From positions 32,412-41,177 of the forward strand of contig PAAB01000031.1 of NCBI GenBank assembly GCA_002591705.1: DNA of 8,766 nt, written 5' to 3'. This document shows, one piece after another, positions 1 to 8,766 of the stretch. The position numbers were made by a program, and so were the translations under genes. The notes beneath the pieces were generated by a model. It worked only from the letters and a program-made list of their open reading frames with translations, was not told the origin of the DNA and did not search any database. Numbering within the stretch: position 1 is the stretch's first letter; each line of letters starts with the position of its first letter. Origin of the DNA: Phycisphaerae bacterium. Its GTDB lineage: Bacteria; Planctomycetota; Phycisphaerae; Phycisphaerales; SM1A02.

Positions 1-45
1 TTGTGAGCAATCATGCCACATCACCGAATGAACCTGACGCACGAC

Positions 46-50
46 GGAGG
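46..50 (+). promoter_or_regulatory. Ribosome binding site deciding the glpK start
   Basis: GGAGG lies 10 bases before the ATG at 61. It supports that ATG over the in-frame ATG at 13, which would add 16 residues (beginning MPHHRMNLTH) that do not look like the start of a glycerol kinase. No promoter is recognisable in bases 1-45. Confidence 0.7.
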
Positions 51-60
51 AAGTGCACCA

Positions 61-1572
61 ATGGCCCACCTGATGGCGCTCGACGAGGGAACGACCAGTT
101 GCCGGACGATCATCTTCGACGAGCACTGCGGCATCGTTGCGATGGCACAGCACGAGTTCGCTCAGCACTTCCCGCAACCGGGCTGGGTCGAGCACGACGC
201 GGCCGAGATCTGGACCACACAGCGGCGGACCATGATCGAGGCGCTCGAACAGGCGGAACTCTCCGCGGCCGACATCGCCTCCATCGGGATCACCAACCAG
301 CGTGAGACCGTCGTGCTGTGGGATCGCCGCACGGGCCGCCCCGTCCACAATGCCATCGTCTGGCAGGATCGGCGGACCGCCGACCTCATCGAGCGGTTCG
401 ACACGCCCGCCCACCGCGAACTGGTGCGAGAACGGACCGGACTGCTGCTGGACCCCTATTTCTGCGCATCCAAGATCCACTGGCTGCTGGAGGAGGTGGA
501 CGGACTGCGGACCGATGCCGAGGCCGGGCACATCGCTTTCGGCACCATGGACTCCTGGCTGCTCTGGAATCTGACCGGCGGTACGGTGCATTGCACGGAC
601 GTCTCCAATGCATGCCGTACGCTGCTCTACGATATCCATCGTGGCCGGTGGGACGACGAGCTTCTGCAGTTGTTCGATATTCCCGCGGCGATGCTTCCCG
701 ATGTCCGCCCCACGAGCTGCGACTTCGGTGCCACGGAGACTCCGCTGCTGGGCGAACCCGTGCACATCGGCGGCATGATCGGCGATCAGCAGTCTGCGCT
801 CTTCGGACAGGCCTGTGTCGAGCCCGGGATGGCGAAGACGACCTACGGCACCGGCTGCTTCCTGCTGATGAACACCGGTGAGACCGCAGTCGCCAGCGAA
901 CACAACATGCTCACCACCGTGGCATGGCAACTTGACGACTGCGCTCCGACCTACGCGCTGGAAGGCAGCGTGTTCATGGGAGGTGCGTCGATCCAATGGC
1001 TCCGCGACGGCCTCAAGCTGATCAGCAACGCTCCGGAGGTGAACGCGCTCGCCGGATCCGTCCCCGACAGCGGCGGCGTGGTGCTCGTGCCGGCCTTTGC
1101 CGGACTCGGAGCGCCGTACTGGGATCCCTTCGCCCGCGGTGCGATTCTGGGCCTGACCCGCGGAAGCACCGACGCCCACGTGGCGCGGGCGACCCTCGAA
1201 GGCATCGCCTGCCAGGTCTGCGATCTGCTGAAGGCGATGGAGGGTGACTCGGGCGTTCCGCTCTCGGAGTTGCGTGTGGATGGTGGAGCTGCGGCCAGTG
1301 ATCTGCTGATGCAGATCCAGTGCGACCTGCTGGATCGACCGGTGCTCCGTCCACAGGTGCTGGAGACCACTGCGCTCGGGGCTGCCTTCATGGCGGGGCT
1401 CGCCTGCGGCGTCTACGGTTCACTCTCCGATATCAGCGGACATTGGCATCAGGAGCGGCGGTTCGAAGCCGACATGAAGGCTGGAGTGCGGGGAGACCGC
1501 CTGGCCAGGTGGAGCAGGGCGGTGGAGCGTGCCCGGGGTTGGATGCAGGAGGATGGCGATGCTGCGGGCTGA
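61..1572 (+). CDS. glpK: Glycerol kinase
   Basis: Phosphorylates glycerol with ATP to sn-glycerol-3-phosphate in the cytoplasm, trapping glycerol and feeding the next gene, glpD. The 503-residue product matches the usual length of about 500. FGGY-kinase signatures are clear: N-terminal phosphate loop LDEGTTSCR (7-15), GITNQRET (76-83) with WQDRRT (101-106), TDVSNACRTLL (179-189), GDQQSALFGQ (241-250) with D242 as the expected catalytic base, YGTGCFLLMNTG (262-273), GAPYWDPFARGAILGLTRG (350-368), RVDGGAAASDLLMQ (405-418) and the C-terminal TALGAAF. The segment before GDQQ is short (LLGEPVHIGG). It lacks the GGKGGTR loop that binds fructose-1,6-bisphosphate in the E. coli enzyme, and I see no His matching the HPr-phosphorylated site of Gram-positive enzymes, so regulation probably differs. 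The end overlaps glpD by 14 bases. No glpF facilitator gene is visible. Confidence 0.97.
   Translation: MAHLMALDEGTTSCRTIIFDEHCGIVAMAQHEFAQHFPQPGWVEHDAAEIWTTQRRTMIEALEQAELSAADIASIGITNQRETVVLWDRRTGRPVHNAIVWQDRRTADLIERFDTPAHRELVRERTGLLLDPYFCASKIHWLLEEVDGLRTDAEAGHIAFGTMDSWLLWNLTGGTVHCTDVSNACRTLLYDIHRGRWDDELLQLFDIPAAMLPDVRPTSCDFGATETPLLGEPVHIGGMIGDQQSALFGQACVEPGMAKTTYGTGCFLLMNTGETAVASEHNMLTTVAWQLDDCAPTYALEGSVFMGGASIQWLRDGLKLISNAPEVNALAGSVPDSGGVVLVPAFAGLGAPYWDPFARGAILGLTRGSTDAHVARATLEGIACQVCDLLKAMEGDSGVPLSELRVDGGAAASDLLMQIQCDLLDRPVLRPQVLETTALGAAFMAGLACGVYGSLSDISGHWHQERRFEADMKAGVRGDRLARWSRAVERARGWMQEDGDAAG
1547..1552 (+). promoter_or_regulatory. Ribosome binding site inside glpK deciding the glpD start
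   Basis: A full AGGAGG lies in the last codons of glpK. It directly abuts the ATG at 1553, which is too close for use, and sits 6 bases before the ATG at 1559, a good spacing. This favours 1559 and implies that glpD translation is coupled to glpK. Confidence 0.75.
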
Positions 1573-3127
1573 TCTGGTTACCGCCGCAACCGCCGCGGAG
1601 GACTGGGATGTGGTCGTCATCGGCGGCGGCGCCACCGGACTCGGGACCGCGGTCGACGCCGCGTCCCGTGGGTACCGGACCCTGCTGCTCGAGCAGGTCG
1701 ACTTTGCGAAGGCGACGAGCAGTCGATCAACCAAGCTGGTCCACGGCGGAGTTCGGTATCTCCAGCAGGGGAACATCTCGCTGGTTCGTGAGGCGCTCCA
1801 TGAGCGGGGTCTGATGTACGACAACGCGCCGCACCTGGTCACCGATCTCGCCTTCGTGGTGCCGCGCTACAAGTGGTGGGAGGGGCCGTTCTACGGCATC
1901 GGACTCAAGCTCTACGATCTGCTCGCCGGCAAGCTCAACCTCGCGCCGTCGCGGAGACTCTCCCACCAACAGACCCTGAAGGCGATACCGAACCTGGAGT
2001 CCAACGGACTTGACGGCGGGACGCAGTACCACGACGGACAGTTCGACGACTCCCGGATGTGCACGACGCTCATGCGAACGGGGCTCGATCACGGTGCGGT
2101 CATGCTCAATCACGCTCCGGTGGTGGGATTGCTTCGCGATCGGGACGACCATGTGTCCGGCGTTCGGTTCCGCGATTCGGAGACGGGTCTCGAACACGAG
2201 GCCCGGGCCCGGGTGGTGGTCAACGCCACGGGGGTCTTCTCCAACGCCGTGCGTCGGATGGACGACGTGGATGCGGATTCGGTCGTCGAGCCCAGCCGCG
2301 GCGTGCATCTGGTGCTCGACGCGTCGTTTCTGAGGGGTGAGACGGCCATCATGGTTCCGCACACCGACGACGGACGCATCCTGTTCGTCATCCCCTGGCA
2401 CGAACGGTGTCTGGTGGGAACGACGGACGAGCACGCTCCCGAACCGGTGCTGGAACCGAGGGCCACGGAGGATGAGGTCGAGTTCATCCTGCGCAACGCG
2501 GCCCGCTACCTCGACAAGGACCCGGGACGGGAGGATGTGCTCAGCGTCTTCGCCGGCTTGCGTCCACTGGTGAAGCACAAGGGGACCGCCACCAAGAAGA
2601 TCTCCCGCGAGCACGAGATCATCGTCTCCCGTGGCGGACTGGTCACCGTCGTCGGAGGCAAGTGGACCACCTACCGACGGATGGCGGCGGACACGATGGA
2701 CTCCGCCATCGACATCGGTGGATTGGAGCGGCGGGACTGCGTCACCGAATCGCTCCGGCTCCACGGATGGCTGGATCGCTCGGATCCGTCCATGCCCCGA
2801 TCGAACTGGCTGCGGGTCTACGGTGCCGATGCGGAGGAGGTCCTCGGCACCTGCAGCGAGATCGAGGACGGGATGGAACTGCTGCACGAACGTCTGCCGT
2901 ACCCGCGCGGCGTCGTGGTGCACGCGGTCCGGTTCGAACTGGCGAGGACGGTCGAGGACGTGCTGGCCCGTCGGACGCGGGCCCTGCTCCTGGACGCATC
3001 GGCGGCCGCCGACGCGGCCGAGGAGGTTGCCACCCTGATGGCGGACGAGTTGGGCCGTGACGCGGCGTGGGTCGCATCGCAGGTCGCCGAGTTCCGCGAT
3101 CTGGCCTCGGGCTATCGGCTGGTCTAG
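1559..3127 (+). CDS. glpD: Glycerol-3-phosphate dehydrogenase, FAD-dependent (aerobic type)
   Basis: Oxidises glycerol-3-phosphate to dihydroxyacetone phosphate and passes electrons through FAD to membrane quinone; expected peripherally on the inner face of the cytoplasmic membrane. The 522 residues fit the GlpD/GlpA family. The N-terminal FAD-binding Rossmann motif is VVVIGGGATGLGTAVDAASR (18-37), followed by SSRSTKLVHGGVRYLQQG (54-71), the dehydrogenase signature. VVNATGVFSNAV (220-231) is a further FAD contact, FAGLRPLV (331-338) carries the probable substrate arginine, and GGKWTTYRRMA (366-376) closes the catalytic domain. The rest is the usual helical C-terminal domain (LPYPRGVVVHAVRFELARTV, 446-465). 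The length and absence of a C-terminal Cys-rich region argue for the single-subunit aerobic enzyme rather than the anaerobic GlpABC complex. An in-frame GTG at 1529 and ATG at 1553 are less likely starts. The stop TAG overlaps the stop of the convergent gene. Confidence 0.96.
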   Translation: MLRADLVTAATAAEDWDVVVIGGGATGLGTAVDAASRGYRTLLLEQVDFAKATSSRSTKLVHGGVRYLQQGNISLVREALHERGLMYDNAPHLVTDLAFVVPRYKWWEGPFYGIGLKLYDLLAGKLNLAPSRRLSHQQTLKAIPNLESNGLDGGTQYHDGQFDDSRMCTTLMRTGLDHGAVMLNHAPVVGLLRDRDDHVSGVRFRDSETGLEHEARARVVVNATGVFSNAVRRMDDVDADSVVEPSRGVHLVLDASFLRGETAIMVPHTDDGRILFVIPWHERCLVGTTDEHAPEPVLEPRATEDEVEFILRNAARYLDKDPGREDVLSVFAGLRPLVKHKGTATKKISREHEIIVSRGGLVTVVGGKWTTYRRMAADTMDSAIDIGGLERRDCVTESLRLHGWLDRSDPSMPRSNWLRVYGADAEEVLGTCSEIEDGMELLHERLPYPRGVVVHAVRFELARTVEDVLARRTRALLLDASAAADAAEEVATLMADELGRDAAWVASQVAEFRDLASGYRLV

Positions 3128-3513
3128 CCGTCGATCGCGTGCGATTCGAGGTCCTCGAGCTGGCAGTGCTCCAGAGCGCCCTCGTGCGTAGCGGAGAGCA
3201 CGACCCGCGGAGCGCATCCATTCAGCAACGCCTCCTGCCAGCGGGGTGCGCACAGGCACCAGCGGTCGCCGTCCTTCAGACCCGGAAATCCGTACTGCGG
3301 CATGGGAGTGGAGAGATCGTTGCCGACCGAGCGAGAGAACGCGAGGAACTCGTCCGTGACCACCACGCATACGGTGTGACTGCCGAGGTCGTCCGGTCCG
3401 GTCTCGCAGCAGCCGCTTCGGTAGAAGCCGGTCATCGGGTCGAGCGAGCAGGCCTGCAGGGGATCACCCTGGACGTTTCGCTGGGGCGGAGGAGTCTCGA
3501 TGGAGCGAATCAT
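3124..3513 (-). CDS. DUF2237 family protein
   Basis: A 129-residue protein of the widespread DUF2237 (COG3651) family, for which I know no established function. Family hallmarks read from N to C terminus: NVQGDPLQAC (13-22), TGFYRSGCCETG (28-39), GSHTVC (44-49), EFLAFSRSVGNDLSTP (55-70), YGFPGLKDGDRWCLC (74-88) and RWQEA (91-95). The conserved cysteines, a CC pair and a CLC, suggest metal binding or redox chemistry, but that is inference. No signal peptide or membrane segment is seen, so it is probably cytoplasmic. It starts 17 bases after the DNA glycosylase gene on the same strand, so the two are probably co-transcribed; the ribosome binding site is weak (AGG about 8 bases upstream). Its TAG stop lies in the CTAG shared with the glpD stop. 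Confidence 0.92.
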   Translation of the reverse strand: MIRSIETPPPQRNVQGDPLQACSLDPMTGFYRSGCCETGPDDLGSHTVCVVVTDEFLAFSRSVGNDLSTPMPQYGFPGLKDGDRWCLCAPRWQEALLNGCAPRVVLSATHEGALEHCQLEDLESHAIDG

Positions 3514-3530
3514 GACCAGAGCCTAGCAGG

Positions 3531-4364
3531 TCAATGCTGCCGAGACGGGACCCAGGCCGTTGTCCGTCCCGCGAGCGTGAGGTGCTCGATCGGTGTACCG
3601 TCGCGCAGCGCTGCTCCGTCCTGTCGGCCCCATCGATGATGGAACAGCCAGGCACGGGGAAGTCGACTCTTCTCCGCATTGACCTTGACCGCGGTTCGTA
3701 TGACGGATCCCAGACAGCGACGCAGTGCCCGGATCTCGGACTCGTCCAGCGAATCGGCTCCTCGACGTGGATCCAGTCGGGCCTGGTACAGGACTTCATC
3801 CGCGATCCAGTTGCCCACCCCCGCGGCAAAGGATTGATCGAGCAGCAGTCCCTTCAGGGTGACCCGCCGTCCGCCGATCCGTTTCGCGAACGCCGCGGCC
3901 GTGGGCATCGAAAGAAGCGGATCGAACCCGAGTTTCGACAGGGGGGGTTCTTCACGCGGTGTCTGCCGCATTTTGATGCGGCCGAATCGACGTGCACTGG
4001 TCATCGCCAGTCGCCCACCGTCGTCGAACTCGAGCTGGATCTTCCAGAACCTCGGCGGCCAGTCGGATCCGGGATCGATGCCCGATTCCAACTGCAGATG
4101 GTTTCCCTCGGGGACATGAAAGGCCCCCGTCATGCCGAAGTGGAAGAGCGGCATCGGGGGCTGATCCAGTTCGAACCACAGCTGCTTGCCGAGGCGTTCC
4201 ACCGAACGGACCGTGCGTCCCGTGAGCCGGCGGGCGAGGGTACGCGGAGCGATCCCGTCGATGACGATGCGGTCGTCGGCGCATCGCACCCGTCGGATCA
4301 CGCGTCCCTCCGCGACTTCGGCCGCCATGCGGCGACCACGTTCGACTTCTGGCAGCTCCGGCAT
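3531..4364 (-). CDS. Fpg/Nei-family DNA glycosylase with a plant/fungal-type zincless finger
   Basis: Base-excision repair enzyme expected to remove oxidised purines (formamidopyrimidines and related lesions) and cut the resulting abasic site. The 277-residue product starts MPELPEVE; Pro2 (Schiff-base nucleophile) and Glu3 must be near-terminal, which fixes the start at 4364 rather than the in-frame ATG at 4403. K60 in GKQLWFEL is the expected beta-hairpin lysine, followed by FHFGMTG (74-80) and RRFGRIKM (125-132). The helix-two-turn-helix is LLLDQSFAAGVGNWIADE (173-190), with N185. The C terminus should be a four-Cys zinc finger in bacterial MutM, but has no Cys at all. It reads WLFHHRWGR (239-247) and AGRTTAWVPSRQ (265-276), closely resembling the zincless finger of plant and fungal FPG (GRTTAYVPELQ as I recall it), with R267 as the DNA-contacting arginine. 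The whole protein looks plant-like, not just the tail. It could be called mutM by automated annotation. Confidence 0.93.
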   Translation of the reverse strand: MPELPEVERGRRMAAEVAEGRVIRRVRCADDRIVIDGIAPRTLARRLTGRTVRSVERLGKQLWFELDQPPMPLFHFGMTGAFHVPEGNHLQLESGIDPGSDWPPRFWKIQLEFDDGGRLAMTSARRFGRIKMRQTPREEPPLSKLGFDPLLSMPTAAAFAKRIGGRRVTLKGLLLDQSFAAGVGNWIADEVLYQARLDPRRGADSLDESEIRALRRCLGSVIRTAVKVNAEKSRLPRAWLFHHRWGRQDGAALRDGTPIEHLTLAGRTTAWVPSRQH

Positions 4365-4400
4365 GGTGGAAACAGTAGCCGCGGCCCCGATCTCCAGCAC

Positions 4401-4423
4401 CATTTACAATGAGAAATATGCAT
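4401..4423 (+). promoter_or_regulatory. AT-rich patch with a possible -10 box
   Basis: About 17 of these 23 bases are A or T, in a window otherwise strongly GC-rich. It contains TACAAT (4405-4410), one mismatch from the TATAAT -10 consensus, overlapping the first ATG (4409) of the phosphatase lipoprotein. No convincing -35 box lies 16-18 bases upstream. If this is the -10 element, transcription would begin close to the ATG at 4418, giving a nearly leaderless message. The 44-base gap (4365-4408) between the two divergent genes must also hold the glycosylase promoter, which I cannot identify. Confidence 0.3.
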
Positions 4424-5266
4424 CGTCTCCTCGTCATGCTGCTTCCGATGGTCCTCCTCGGGTGTGACAAGTCGGATCCACCGGCCGTCGGTTCCGACGA
4501 TGGGCTGCCGAACCTGCAATGCGTGGATTCCACCATGCAGATCTGGGTCGGGGGACACCCGCATCCCGGACGGGGCGACGCGGCGATGGATCGACTCGGG
4601 ATTCGATCGATCATCGTGGTCGATGCGCCGCCACCGGTCGATCCATCCCGTCCGGCCGTCCACTTGCCGTTGAAGTATTCGGGGATCGATGAGCGGGAGG
4701 CGAGCCAACTGGCCTACCTGCTGACCACCTTGGAACGCCCGATCTACATCCACTGCCACCACGGAACCAATCGGGCTCCCGCGGCCGCTGCGATCGGACT
4801 GATCGGCACCGGTGAGCTGACCGCGGCGGAGGGACTGGGACTGCTGGATCGTTCGGGGACCAATCCGTCCTTCGGCGGGCTGTTCGAGGCCGTTCGCACG
4901 GCGACACCGATTCCGAACGACCGACGCGAGCCCTACGACGGATCGGACGCCACGGTGGACGACTTCGCGCTGTCCATGTCCGACGTCGATGAGGTCTTCG
5001 CCCGTCTCGAAGGTGCATCCGATCGCGGGTGGACGGATACGCAGTCCCCGGCGGATGCCGCGGAGCTGGTGGACCTTCTCCGGGTCTCGCTCGACCGAAC
5101 CGCATTGAACGAGGACCAGATCTTCCGTCGGCTTTCCGAAGGAAGCATCGCACGGGCCACGGCACTCGAGGATGCGCTGGTGCAGGGGGATCGCACCGCG
5201 GCCCTGCGGCAGATGAAGAGTCTGACCGCCACCTGCCGCGCCTGCCACGACCGGTTCAGGAACTGA
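4409..5266 (+). CDS. Lipoprotein with CX5R phosphatase domain fused to a cytochrome c'-like haem domain
   Basis: A 285-residue probable periplasmic lipoprotein. A short basic start and hydrophobic stretch end in lipobox VLLGC, with C19 as the lipidated residue and D20 next to it (a retention signal for the inner membrane in E. coli). Residues 33-165 resemble a dual-specificity/tyrosine phosphatase: WVGGHPHPGRGDAAMDRLGI (46-65), IIVVDAPPPVD (68-78), then the active-site loop HCHHGTNRAP (115-124), a CX5R motif with C116 nucleophile and R122. Residues about 185-285 are predicted helical and end CRACHDRFRN; C276, C279 and H280 form a CXXCH haem-c attachment site at the extreme C terminus, as in cytochrome c'/c556. 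M190 is a possible sixth ligand. Substrate unknown. Neither ATG (4409 or 4418) has a Shine-Dalgarno sequence; both preserve the lipobox. The last 11 bases overlap the convergent cupin gene. Domain calls come from motifs; the haem domain is less certain than the phosphatase. Confidence 0.85.
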   Translation: MRNMHRLLVMLLPMVLLGCDKSDPPAVGSDDGLPNLQCVDSTMQIWVGGHPHPGRGDAAMDRLGIRSIIVVDAPPPVDPSRPAVHLPLKYSGIDEREASQLAYLLTTLERPIYIHCHHGTNRAPAAAAIGLIGTGELTAAEGLGLLDRSGTNPSFGGLFEAVRTATPIPNDRREPYDGSDATVDDFALSMSDVDEVFARLEGASDRGWTDTQSPADAAELVDLLRVSLDRTALNEDQIFRRLSEGSIARATALEDALVQGDRTAALRQMKSLTATCRACHDRFRN

Positions 5267-5708
5267 CTCCATCCGGTTCGAAGTCGTCGTCGGCCATCTC
5301 GAAGAAGTCGAACTCGAACGCCGGACTGACCGTGCAGCCCACGAGGGTCCATTCGCCCAGCGACCGGGCGGACTGCCAGGCGTCCGGCGGCACGATGGCC
5401 TGGGGCGTCTCCTCCTGGAACAACCCGGGGCCCAGGGTGTGGCGACGCACCGGACGACCGTCCTCGCTGACCAGCAGTTCCAGCGGAGCGCCTTCGTAGA
5501 AGTGCCAGATCTCCGTGGCGTCGATGCGGTGCCACCGGGACCGTTCCCCGGCACGCAGGAGAAAGAGGATGGCGGTGCCGCTGCCGCGGCCGCCGTCGGC
5601 GGGTCGATCCCGCCAGGTCTCACGATAGAAACCGCCTTCGGGATGGGGTTTCAGCCCCAGTCGGGCGATGATCTCGTGGGCCGGCGGCAGGGTGTTCGAT
5701 GCGTTCAC
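5256..5708 (-). CDS. DUF985 (cupin_5) family protein
   Basis: A 150-residue single-domain cupin of the DUF985/COG3542 family; biochemical role not established to my knowledge. Family signatures are LGLKPHPEGGFYRETWR (17-33), ILFLLRAGERSRWHRIDATE (47-66), IWHFYEGAPLELLV (67-80), VPPDAWQSARSL (106-117) and GEWTLVGCTVSPAFEFDFFE (118-137). H60, E66 and H69 are plausible metal ligands of the cupin barrel. No signal peptide, so cytoplasmic, unlike the secreted peptidases before it. The start is a GTG whose last two bases are the first two of the peptidase stop (GTGA), with GAGG 4 bases upstream; this suggests translational coupling. The open frame continues far upstream, but that part is only a shadow of the peptidase gene. 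The stop lies 11 bases inside the convergent phosphatase gene. Confidence 0.92.
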   Translation of the reverse strand: MNASNTLPPAHEIIARLGLKPHPEGGFYRETWRDRPADGGRGSGTAILFLLRAGERSRWHRIDATEIWHFYEGAPLELLVSEDGRPVRRHTLGPGLFQEETPQAIVPPDAWQSARSLGEWTLVGCTVSPAFEFDFFEMADDDFEPDGVSS

Positions 5709-7471
5709 GTGTCCTCGCCCGGTGCCGGAGTGGGGGGGATCGGATCGGTTTCCTGCAGGGGCACGATCTGTTCGATGGTGCCGCCCTTGTCGCTGATGTA
5801 GCGAAGCGTCACCGGCTCGTCCCCTTCGACGAGAAACCGGAACAGACGTGTTCCGTTGGACCCCACGCCCTGTTCGTTGCGGATCCGATGCGGTCGGTGC
5901 TGATCGTCCGGAATGCTCATCCCGGACCACGGTGTGAACGAGTTCACTCCGCTGGATGCGACGACGCGCGTCGAATCTCCGGTGTCGCAGACCAGTTCGT
6001 CGGGGTGGCCGATGCGATGCCGACGTGCCCAGCCGAGGATGGTGGGGATGACCTTCGGATTCTCGACCTCGACGGTGATCTCCCAGAGACCGGCCGGCCC
6101 GCGTCGGACCTGGAGCATGCCCCATTCGACCAGCGGCATCTCGTCGGCGTGGTACATCGTGAAGGCGAAGTTGCGATGGCACTCCTCCTCCTGGGCCCAC
6201 AGGGGGGCGACGCGGTTGGCGTGCTTCTTCGTTCCTCCGACGAGCACCGTGCCGTAGGTGGGGTGTTCCACCTCCCGATAGGGAACGTAGACGTCCTCGA
6301 ACTGGAGCATGTCCCGGAACTCGATGGTGTCCTCCCGGGAGGTGAGCTCCCCGCTGGCGAACATCTTGTCGGTCGTCCACAGTTCGTTGACGAACGACAT
6401 GATGCCTTCCTGCTCGTAGGTGAACGAGGTCTCGTCGCCGTGGGTCGTGTAGAGATCCTCCCACGAGACCAGTGCGTCGTAGAACGGAATCATCTTGGAT
6501 CCCTTGGTGGCCATCTCCTCCATCACCCGCAGGTCCGAACCGGGGTAGGACTGGTAGGACGCTCCCGGACCGTACAGGACCATGCCCCCGGTGTTGTGGT
6601 ACGACTGGACGCCGGCGATGTTGGGATGGGCCATGATGAATTCGGCCGTCGCCCGGCATTCGGGAAGACTCAGGGGATAGTCGGTGGCTCCGTACTGGAT
6701 GTACTCCGGCTGCCAGTCGCTGGGGAAGTTGCGGTTCGGGTCGTAGCCGCCCTCGCCATCCTCGTTGATCTCGCCGTCGCCGTCGTTGTCGATGCCCTCC
6801 TGTCCGAGGCGTGTCCAGCCGCCGGGTTCCTCGTCGCGATCGACCCGGGTGAAGAACCGGGGATCGTCCTCGTCCCGCTTCCAGCGGCCGGTCGGATCCG
6901 CGACCCACATCGAGGTGATGTGACCGTCTCCATCGAGGTCGTCGGGACCGTCCTCGTCGTAGCGTCCGTCGTGGTCGTTGTCGGTGGGCCGGATGCCGCC
7001 GCGCAGGATGTTGGGCGTGGCGGCCTTCTCGAACCAGTACATCCGACCGTCCGGGTTTGAGGAGGGGACGAAGTAGAAGGTCCGCTCCTGCATGAGTTTC
7101 GTGAGGGCGTCGATGTTGCCGTGGCTTCGGGTCAGGTACCAGATGCTGTAGAGCACGGTTTCCGTGGCCTGGATCTCGTTGCCGTGGATGTTGCCCTCGA
7201 TGTACATCGCGGTCTTGGACTCGGGGGGTCCGGTCTCGGGATCGTTGAGCGTGACGAGCCAGATGTCCCGACCGCCCACGGAGGTCCCGATGGACTCCAT
7301 CTCCAAGAGGTGGGGGTACGCACGGGTGAGATCGCGCAGGGCCTTGGTCATCTCCTCGTGGGTGTACCACCGGTTGAAGGAGAGATCGACCTTGCTCGGT
7401 GCGGGGGACTGCGCCTTCGCCACGGGGGCGAGCAGGCAGCAGGCGACGATCAGAATGCCGAGACGATTCAC
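5705..7471 (-). CDS. Secreted M14-family zinc carboxypeptidase
   Basis: A 588-residue exported metallopeptidase. It begins with a signal peptide (about 1-20, cleavage after VAKA), then an M14 carboxypeptidase domain (about 31-372) and a beta-rich C-terminal domain (about 452-575). Zinc ligands are H96 and E99 in NIHGNE and H292 in QSYHNTGG. R143 in NPDGR and N246/R247 in DPNRNFP match the substrate-carboxylate residues, and E363 in SFVNELW is the catalytic Glu. Between R143 and N246 lie acidic DxDxDG segments (164-169, 178-183, 228-233) resembling calcium-binding loops; such inserts are common in environmental M14 proteins. Expected to trim amino acids from the C termini of peptides outside the cytoplasm; exact substrate unknown. 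The GTG start has GGAGGT 5 bases upstream and overlaps the stop of the preceding paralogue as GTGA. A longer open frame to 8191 is a shadow of that paralogue. Confidence 0.94.
   Translation of the reverse strand: MNRLGILIVACCLLAPVAKAQSPAPSKVDLSFNRWYTHEEMTKALRDLTRAYPHLLEMESIGTSVGGRDIWLVTLNDPETGPPESKTAMYIEGNIHGNEIQATETVLYSIWYLTRSHGNIDALTKLMQERTFYFVPSSNPDGRMYWFEKAATPNILRGGIRPTDNDHDGRYDEDGPDDLDGDGHITSMWVADPTGRWKRDEDDPRFFTRVDRDEEPGGWTRLGQEGIDNDGDGEINEDGEGGYDPNRNFPSDWQPEYIQYGATDYPLSLPECRATAEFIMAHPNIAGVQSYHNTGGMVLYGPGASYQSYPGSDLRVMEEMATKGSKMIPFYDALVSWEDLYTTHGDETSFTYEQEGIMSFVNELWTTDKMFASGELTSREDTIEFRDMLQFEDVYVPYREVEHPTYGTVLVGGTKKHANRVAPLWAQEEECHRNFAFTMYHADEMPLVEWGMLQVRRGPAGLWEITVEVENPKVIPTILGWARRHRIGHPDELVCDTGDSTRVVASSGVNSFTPWSGMSIPDDQHRPHRIRNEQGVGSNGTRLFRFLVEGDEPVTLRYISDKGGTIEQIVPLQETDPIPPTPAPGEDT
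5712..5716 (-). promoter_or_regulatory. Ribosome binding site for the cupin gene
   Basis: GAGGA on the minus strand, 3-4 bases before the GTG at 5708 and within the last codons of the peptidase gene. It supports the GTG start in a frame with no clear nearby ATG. Confidence 0.5.
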
Positions 7472-8766
7472 AGTGCACCTCCGTCCGTTGCATCGGTGGA
7501 CAACGGGATCGACCGACGATCCTGTCCGTACTTCTCGCTGAAGAGTTCGACTTCGAGCGGAACATCGCCGGGATGCTCCACGACCCATCGCATCTCGTAG
7601 CGACCGCCATCGCCCTCCAGACGCCAGACCTTGTGCACCGGCCGTCCGGTGACGATGGCATCCGGTTCGACGTCGAGTCGGACGACCCACGGGCGTGCTC
7701 GGCGGTTGCGTTTGGCCATTGCGGTACCGGCGGGCAGCCGACCTTCGTTGACCAGCGACGCCTTGACTTCCCAGAGACCGTCCGAGAGCCGCCGGACGTC
7801 GACATCCTGCAGTTCGACCGAGGGCATGTGCCGGGCGAGATCCAGGATGAAGTCGGTCTGGCGCCGACTCAGCTCCTCGATGGCCTCCACGGGAGGCACG
7901 CTGCGGAACATGGGAACCCATCCGCCGATCTCGACCCGCTCGTAGTCGGGGTGGTCGATCTCGGTCCAGGCGACGAACCCGTCGCCGTTGCGCTGCTGGT
8001 CGCTGTACGCCAGCCAGTCGGACTCGGTGGGGGCACCGTCGGACCGCCGGCGGTCGTTGCCGCCGGTGTCCTTCGCGACCCGTCGGATCTCGATGCCGGC
8101 CTGCTTGGCGAAGCCCTCGACCATCTGCGGCGTCATGCGGCTCATCATGTTGTCGTCGTCGGGGACCGGATAGCCCTGATCGAGGGCCCACTGCCGCAGT
8201 TCCTGCATGGTCTCCATGCTGATGTCGCCGATTCCCGAGGGCGTCAGTTTCTCGCCGCCGCCGCGACCGGCCCGATCGCCTCCGCCGCGTCCACCGCGGG
8301 CCCCGCGACCGCCACGCCCTCCGCCCGCGCCGCGTCCGCCCGGCCGGTTCGTGCCGCTTGCGGAGTGGTTGTGCGTACCGAGGCGACGTCGCATCGCGTC
8401 ACGTGCGGCGGACCGCTCGTCGTCGTTGAGTTCACCATCGCCGTCGATGTCGAACTCCTCCATGAAGTCCGCGCCGTCGAAGCCTCCCTGGGATCCCGCC
8501 TGGTCCCCCGAGGTCGGAGATGCCGGATCCTGCCCCGGCTGGGATTCGTCGACGGGCTCGGGGTTCGGCAGCGACCACAGGGGGGTCGAGAAGGCGGGGA
8601 CTCCGTACTGGCCGTAGGCCCAGGCCACGAAGCTGCCGCCCCAGTCCGGCTGCTCCGGATCCTTCAGGCCGGTGACCTCCACGAAGCGCTCGCTGATCAT
8701 CTCGTACATCGCCTCGTCGTCGCCTTCGATGGTGTTGGGGGCACCGGACGGGGCCCGTCCGCTTTC
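7468..8766 (-). CDS. M14 carboxypeptidase-like protein with EF-hand and RGG insert, 5' end missing
   Basis: The last 432 residues of a gene whose start lies beyond the right edge; the frame is open to base 8766, so the ATG at 8709 is internal, not a start. Numbered from that Met, residues 24-46 are the end of an M14 catalytic domain: YGQYGVPAFSTPLW (32-45) aligns with YEQEGIMSFVNELW of the next gene, but with Pro43 where the catalytic Glu belongs. Then come an acidic/Pro linker, a canonical EF-hand loop DIDGDGELNDDE (87-98), a Gly/Arg-rich stretch (121-153) and a helical segment (164-205). From about 240 the two genes align again: WTEIDHPDYERVEIGGW matches YREVEHPTYGTVLVGG, followed by a shared C-terminal beta domain (GLWEVKASLVNEGRLPAG, 311-328). 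It is presumably secreted like its neighbour, but its N terminus is unseen. Possibly non-catalytic. Confidence 0.85.
   Translation of the reverse strand, partial: ESGRAPSGAPNTIEGDDEAMYEMISERFVEVTGLKDPEQPDWGGSFVAWAYGQYGVPAFSTPLWSLPNPEPVDESQPGQDPASPTSGDQAGSQGGFDGADFMEEFDIDGDGELNDDERSAARDAMRRRLGTHNHSASGTNRPGGRGAGGGRGGRGARGGRGGGDRAGRGGGEKLTPSGIGDISMETMQELRQWALDQGYPVPDDDNMMSRMTPQMVEGFAKQAGIEIRRVAKDTGGNDRRRSDGAPTESDWLAYSDQQRNGDGFVAWTEIDHPDYERVEIGGWVPMFRSVPPVEAIEELSRRQTDFILDLARHMPSVELQDVDVRRLSDGLWEVKASLVNEGRLPAGTAMAKRNRRARPWVVRLDVEPDAIVTGRPVHKVWRLEGDGGRYEMRWVVEHPGDVPLEVELFSEKYGQDRRSIPLSTDATDGGAL
7477..7482 (-). promoter_or_regulatory. Ribosome binding site for the M14 peptidase
   Basis: A perfect GGAGGT on the minus strand, 5 bases before the GTG at 7471 and inside the last codons of the upstream gene. 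It fixes the GTG as the start, giving a protein that opens with a good signal peptide. Confidence 0.8.
8251..8349 (-). repeat. Low-complexity Gly/Arg-rich (RGG) coding repeat
   Basis: About 33 codons with repeated GGRGGRGARGGRGGG-type units, very GC-rich and imperfectly repeated at the DNA level. It lies just after the EF-hand (8416-8451) of the M14-like protein. Probably a flexible, positively charged linker. The repeat could vary in length between strains. Confidence 0.85.

Follow-up and report, generated by a model that had tools for sequence, protein, structure and literature searches.

The window (the whole 8,766-nucleotide stretch of Phycisphaerae DNA analyzed here) contains, at 4409..5266 on the forward strand, a gene for a lipoprotein that joins a Cys-phosphatase fold to a c-type haem domain. 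The stop-free frame translates to 285 amino acids. Proteins P0002 and P0003 have 282 and open at the ATG at 4418, so the true start is perhaps three codons 3′ of 4409. The gene is bordered by a divergently transcribed fpg gene on one side and a convergent cupin gene on the other. A glpK-like FGGY kinase and a glycerol-3-phosphate dehydrogenase-like FAD protein (DAO, DAO_C) are encoded in tandem at 13–3127 (forward strand), with a 44-base overlap as listed. Reverse-strand genes for a DUF2237 protein, a formamidopyrimidine-DNA glycosylase, and a Cupin_5 (DUF985) protein flank the phosphatase-haem gene (3124–5705). On the same strand there are a zinc carboxypeptidase (5708–7471; Peptidase_M14, E = 3.6e-39) and a 413-residue frame (7468–8709) with no Pfam match at an E value of 0.01. 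This last frame has an Asp-rich stretch, DIDGDGELNDDE, and a Gly/Arg-rich run, and is kept in loci L001 and L002. The block glpK–glpD–DUF2237–fpg–phosphatase-haem gene–cupin is common to the window, L001, and L002.

All features of the protein are encoded on the forward strand. A predicted signal peptide (4409..4465), read from the sequence and from a motif census of the family, ends in the lipobox VLLGC (residues 15–19, 4451–4465) with its cysteine at residue 19. The dual-specificity-phosphatase-fold domain (residues 33–175, 4505..4933) contains the active-site loop HCHHGTNRAP (residues 115–124, 4751..4780), in which the model and conservation identify Cys116 as the nucleophile, Arg122 as the loop arginine, and Ala123 as the replacement for Ser/Thr. 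The remainder is a four-helix class II c-type haem domain (residues 183–285, 4955..5263) with the haem c attachment site CRACH (residues 276–280, 5234..5248), where conservation points to His280 as the proximal ligand. The predicted structure (mean pLDDT of 90.2, pTM of 0.79) consists of an alpha/beta domain followed by helices at 185–205, 213–230, 237–259, and 262–284. In both the prediction and the fold search, strand 112–115, the loop, and helix 122–133 form the strand–CX5R loop–helix unit typical of dual-specificity phosphatases, and the C terminus forms a four-helix bundle with CXXCH near its end. Comparison with an 81% identical relative in L001 indicates purifying selection (dN/dS of 0.18 overall, 0.17 for the phosphatase part, and 0.14 for the haem part). 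We consider this architecture solid.

The fused proteins are a family spread through the Planctomycetota and are often lipoproteins. A first homolog search gave 18 proteins, the window's own among them, and a scan of genome_contigs gave 102 loci, of which 80 were kept; those titles that name a group are nearly all Planctomycetota. Patterns used in that scan included the peptide PIYIHCHH. Because the set was partly selected in this way it cannot test loop conservation, and the family alignment was therefore also scanned against 294 genomes from the phylum of G001 (the genome of L018, Bythopirellula). Some match was found in 176 of these 294 Planctomycetota genomes. In the match list, full-length hits end at E = 1.6e-50 and hits to the phosphatase part alone begin only at E = 4e-38; all 98 places on the stronger side of this gap were taken into the conservation counts. 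These 98 fused frames come from 97 genomes, one of which has two, so that about one in three of the sampled genomes carries the fusion; up to seven candidates were scored per genome, and absences may for that reason be overcounted. The 98-frame and 80-locus sets partly overlap (L018 and L088 are the same place).

Conservation is strict in both domains. Cys116, Gly119, Arg122, His85, Tyr90, and Met190 are kept in all 98 fused frames. The loop Cys and Arg are also kept in 80/80 of the genome_contigs loci (partly selected by PIYIHCHH), and Met190 is identical in 179/179 aligned fused sequences, a set that includes the window and has some places twice. CXXCH is present in 95 of the 98 frames and 79 of the 80 loci. 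The frames that miss it in the first set (L113, L114, and L173) are open frames reaching contig ends, and the lone miss in the second (L008) is likewise cut. Among the first 18 proteins, one of those with a complete C terminus, the metagenome homolog P0017, has an intact phosphatase half and loop, followed by an unrelated C-terminal tail without CXXCH that looks like a frameshift. As a control, stop-to-stop frames of at least 250 amino acids were taken from the fetched loci; CXXCH occurs within the last 35 residues in only 5 of these 2156 other frames. That the motifs met in one gene by chance, to which we give next to no probability, is refuted by this control and by the recovery of 98 frames from 97 genomes. 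Chance fusion and assembly artefact were ruled out on the same grounds and by the shared gene block and the dN/dS values. Inter-domain coevolution was considered separately, and MI-APC pairs such as 117–194 were discounted, since residue 117 marks a clade.

The initial annotation, made from the window's letters alone, had read the protein as an exported Cys-phosphatase with a haem c domain and loosely suggested similar architectures in planctomycetes. Its lipobox, CX5R loop, and CRACH motif with preceding helices are all present, and both motifs are kept across the family. Fold, profile, and motif conservation agree on an exported Cys-phosphatase fold with a class II haem domain, the C terminus is a helical bundle in the model and the fold search, and CXXCH is retained in every complete frame of the phylum scan, with P0017 the lone odd homolog. 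The suggested planctomycete family exists as the fused frames counted above. Export is also a family trait: in a simple motif census of 179 family frames, with thresholds that we set ad hoc, 167 have a hydrophobic N-terminal segment and 91 have a lipobox. Cells attach haem c to proteins only after export from the cytoplasm, in agreement with these N-terminal signals.

Related arrangements were seen at other loci. Phosphatase-only relatives without haem also occur in Planctomycetota. Eleven were picked by hand from a much longer list; in eight the loop follows the pattern HC.HG.DRTG, Thr included, and the other three (L111, L112, and L183) are nearer the fused family. In a tree built on few columns, with long branches meeting, the phosphatase-only relatives fall across one branch from 190 fused rows. 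L183:5482-6435 (reverse strand) is a close relative with the loop HCHHGKHRGG and without CXXCH; further along the same frame, near the contig end, the family profile matches again in part (positions 42–96), perhaps a tandem or rearranged domain. At L181:5482-7473 (reverse strand), one 664-residue frame encodes a Na+/Ca2+ exchanger (PF01699, E = 1.4e-58) together with the phosphatase-haem module, whose loop is TCETGRDRA and whose haem motif is CTRCH; this single case may be a true fusion or a lost stop. At L170, the fused gene is followed immediately by a distinct class II cytochrome-like frame with CGGCH (L170:7014-7694, forward strand), which matches PF01322 at E = 1.7e-05 and 26.2 bits, just under the cut-off of 26.5. 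At L199, L200, and L202, planctomycete frames of 334–414 residues share a class II haem motif at the C terminus (CDACH, CDDCH) and differ from the family in their N-terminal half.

Beyond the Planctomycetota, 194 genomes from the phylum of G008 (the genome of L074, a MAG titled Pedosphaera sp.) were scanned, and the fusion was found only in G008 itself. The other 49 matching genomes of that phylum have matches to the phosphatase part or the haem part only. The fusion also occurs in L021 (Opitutaceae) and L042 (“Chitinophaga”), but both are MAGs whose assignment may be wrong. Among the matches listed in the open-licence PMC literature, none describes a protein that fuses a phosphatase to a cytochrome c, which is weak evidence of absence.

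Gene neighborhoods were compared by clustering the neighbors within 6 kb at 178 loci, using a crude gene-calling script that left 29 of the 178 family genes uncalled. The six largest clusters sit on the fused gene itself (median distance of at most ~120 bases) and by eye resemble other-frame shadows. The largest cluster that looks real is an ABC ATPase found at 16 loci, with 6 of its 19 members on the same strand. We also scanned 65 same-strand adjacent frames, chosen by us from 99, against Pfam; the commonest families among the 25 of 94 listed, a glycosyl transferase family and a helical bundle domain, have five frames each. No conserved operon partner was found in the 178 loci clustered or among those 25 of 94 Pfam families, in which the same-strand neighbors are diverse. 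Two of the 65 frames match PF01513 and were assigned by eye to the sister loci L048 and L051, where an apparent NAD kinase gene directly precedes the fused gene on the same strand. This neighbor is curious, since in the Pfam family PTP-NADK a phosphatase and an NAD kinase form one protein.

The best PDB profile match of the phosphatase part is TpbA of Pseudomonas aeruginosa. The proposed general acid of TpbA is Asp105, Asp108 is also conserved, and a D105A substitution lowers catalytic efficiency by 53% (PMC4409338). In the profile alignment, Ser91 (4679..4681) of the window protein sits at the Asp105 position and its Asp94 at the Asp108 position. The first of these positions is Asp in 52/98 family frames, and an acidic residue is found at 92–96 in 51 of 57 frames without Asp91. 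On a tree of 142 rows, Asp91 changes 16 times, and at least eight of these changes are forced by well-supported branches. (The rows were kept from 179 after removal of L181, L060, L113, L114, L173, L008, and rows more than 70% identical to one kept.) Eight single-domain relatives with canonical loops have no Asp in this column either, so beyond the fused family the column may not mark the acid. Evidence that the general acid was lost is weak, and Asp94 could take its place in the window protein.

The residue after the loop Arg also varies. It is Gly in 82, Ser in 14, and Ala in 2 of the 98 frames, with no Thr, and Ser in 61, Gly in 16, and Ala in 3 of the 80 loci; the window protein, with Ala123, has neither Ser nor Thr. 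In PRL3, which has Ala111 here, the phosphocysteine lasts about 2 h, and an A111S change makes turnover 15-fold faster (PMC5427921). By that account, an enzyme without Ser/Thr after the loop Arg is slow and not dead. The window clade has neither the Asp105 equivalent nor Ser/Thr after Arg122, so rapid phosphatase turnover cannot be taken for granted, and the phosphatase domain of this clade is likely atypical. Asp91 and Ser123 occur together in 70/190 fused rows, and other clades may therefore be ordinary phosphatases.

Variation at these two positions (Asp in just over half of the 98 frames at the first, Ser in 14 at the second) would fit a protein that works as an electron-carrying cytochrome and uses its phosphatase-fold domain only for docking or anchoring, and other planctomycete proteins do bear a C-terminal class II haem motif without a phosphatase domain. 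A mere docking part would, however, have no need of Cys116, Gly119, Arg122, His85, and Tyr90 in 98 of 98 frames, and given this conservation of the loop we consider such a role very unlikely. Loss of the acid Asp and of Ser/Thr at position 123 would also suit sulfur chemistry, which needs neither. Cys116 would then carry a persulfide or thiosulfonate, and the haem would take electrons, as in the periplasmic thiosulfate and sulfide cytochromes. The DUF442 domain of Xylella Blh, which has the phosphatase fold, is a thiosulfate sulfurtransferase (PMC5823870), and five of six family members scanned (the window protein gave no match) have weak matches to the NCBIfam models for Blh and the TIGR01244 sulfurtransferase. 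The scores of these matches are only 17–25 bits, far below the cut-offs of 85.85 and 625 (TIGR01244/NF040641). The profile search likewise ranks TpbA (E = 1.9e-11) ahead of 3gxg, a DUF442 structure (E = 0.0011), and no sulfur-oxidation genes stand out among the 25 of 94 neighbor families listed. We regard a sulfur-handling enzyme as a serious though unlikely rival; if this chemistry did apply, the family would be an unrecognized class of haem sulfur enzyme.

The haem domain scores 27.1 bits against PF01322 (cut-off of 26.5), and its profile relatives are class II cytochromes and b562 entries bearing CXXCH. Among the best 50 rows of the fold search it lies nearest to NaxLS and cytochromes c′, and by their titles several of these structures were solved with NO or CO; 1s05 (c-556) and free-standing b562 entries do not occur among those 50 rows. 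The structural alignments pair model residues 7–108 with chain residues 26–129 of 6r6m and model residues 6–108 with 25–129 of 6r6o. Met190 (4976..4978) is model residue 13 and, by these ranges, overlays NaxLS chain residue 32 if helix 1 is gapless. The title of 6r6o describes a C32G mutant, and the wild-type residue is thus judged to be Cys. NaxLS has His/Cys-ligated six-coordinate haems and yet binds NO, cytochromes c′ keep the sixth site free, and c556 and b562 use Met as the sixth ligand.

The position of the invariant Met190 at NaxLS residue 32 favors a His/Met haem with a role in electron transfer or redox sensing. Met190 is likely the sixth ligand of a six-coordinate haem of the c556/b562 type. 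In the HMM alignment, b562 Met7 falls three positions after Met190, about one helical turn away, and for this reason the ligand role is predicted only. Attachment and ligation of the haem in the window protein are both predicted. The gas sensing suggested by the initial annotation, with NO or CO on a cytochrome c′-like haem altering phosphatase activity, is less well supported: the class II haem fold holds, and an open sixth site is doubtful. Such gas gating would accord with the NO- and CO-bound structures among the closest folds, and with NaxLS, which binds NO although six-coordinate. Met190, present in 98/98 frames, nevertheless probably fills the site that is open in cytochromes c′, and there are no nitrogen-oxide genes among the 25 of 94 neighbor families listed; we consider a gas-gated phosphatase possible though quite unlikely.

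We tentatively favor, at a little short of an even chance, a redox-gated slow Cys-phosphatase or phosphocysteine switch that works outside the cytoplasm with a His280/Met190-ligated haem of the c556/b562 type. We propose it mainly because the Cys loop and the haem are strictly kept and the aids to fast turnover are loose. With Asp91 labile and Met190 and CXXCH constant in complete frames, selection seems to act more strongly on the haem than on rapid catalysis. In this model, a TpbA-like phosphatase-fold domain would be permanently joined to a covalent haem c, probably ligated by His280 and Met190, that reads or sets the periplasmic redox state. The Cys116 active site would answer to the state of the haem, and the loop would bind a phosphorylated periplasmic ligand. 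In clades without Ser/Thr after Arg122, the phosphate may stay on Cys116 for a long time, as in PRLs, which would make the protein a slow phosphatase or a phospho-switch gated by redox state, not a fast enzyme. Slow chemistry, haem-to-Cys coupling, and substrate are what we infer here. The narrower proposal, that the haem redox state governs capture, retention, and release of phosphate (or another oxyanion) by the periplasmic Cys loop, is possible and somewhat doubtful.

Phosphatase Cys thiolates are redox-sensitive, and we know of no characterized case of a haem built into a phosphatase polypeptide. If the proposal is true, a c-type cytochrome would directly control a phosphatase active site, a signaling principle present in about one-third of the sampled Planctomycetota genomes. 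Real coupling would provide planctomycetes with a direct line from periplasmic respiratory or redox state to extracytoplasmic phosphate chemistry, and would offer a simple experimental system, with its own optical readout, for studying how redox state controls phosphatases.

Among known systems, PRL 1–3 resemble the family at the residue after the loop Arg, where the Gly or Ala of 84/98 frames can be likened to the PRL Ala. Ala itself is rare in the fused family (2/98 and 3/80), the rest having Gly or Ser, and the PRLs themselves are eukaryotic, intracellular, and free of haem. In several homologs the phosphatase part matches the Pfam families PTP-NADK, Tc-R-P, and PTP-SAK at or near the cut-off; the window protein falls below the cut-off or has no score, and no haem fusion appears in those family names. 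A phosphatase fold with a Cys loop is common to the family and Blh/DUF442, with weak profile similarity, and in Blh the DUF442 domain is fused to a sulfur dioxygenase (PMC5823870). TpbA (PA3885; 2m3v, 4r0s, and 4r0t) shares the fold, export, and an HC(X)HG(X)(N/H)R loop with the window protein, and its profile match covers the phosphatase part only. It is a periplasmic dual-specificity phosphatase with the loop HCKHGNNR, and is not reported to have a haem domain (PMC4409338). Where TpbA has Asp105 and follows its loop with Thr, the window protein has Ser91, HCHHGTNR followed by Ala123, and a covalent haem site. The NaxLS class II subunit (6r6m/6r6o) differs in the residue at the distal position, Cys by the 6r6o title where the window protein has Met190. 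The class II c-type cytochromes as a whole, including NaxLS, cytochrome c′, c-556 (1s05), and b562 with an added CXXCH, are separate proteins, whereas in the window protein the haem domain shares a polypeptide with a phosphatase fold.
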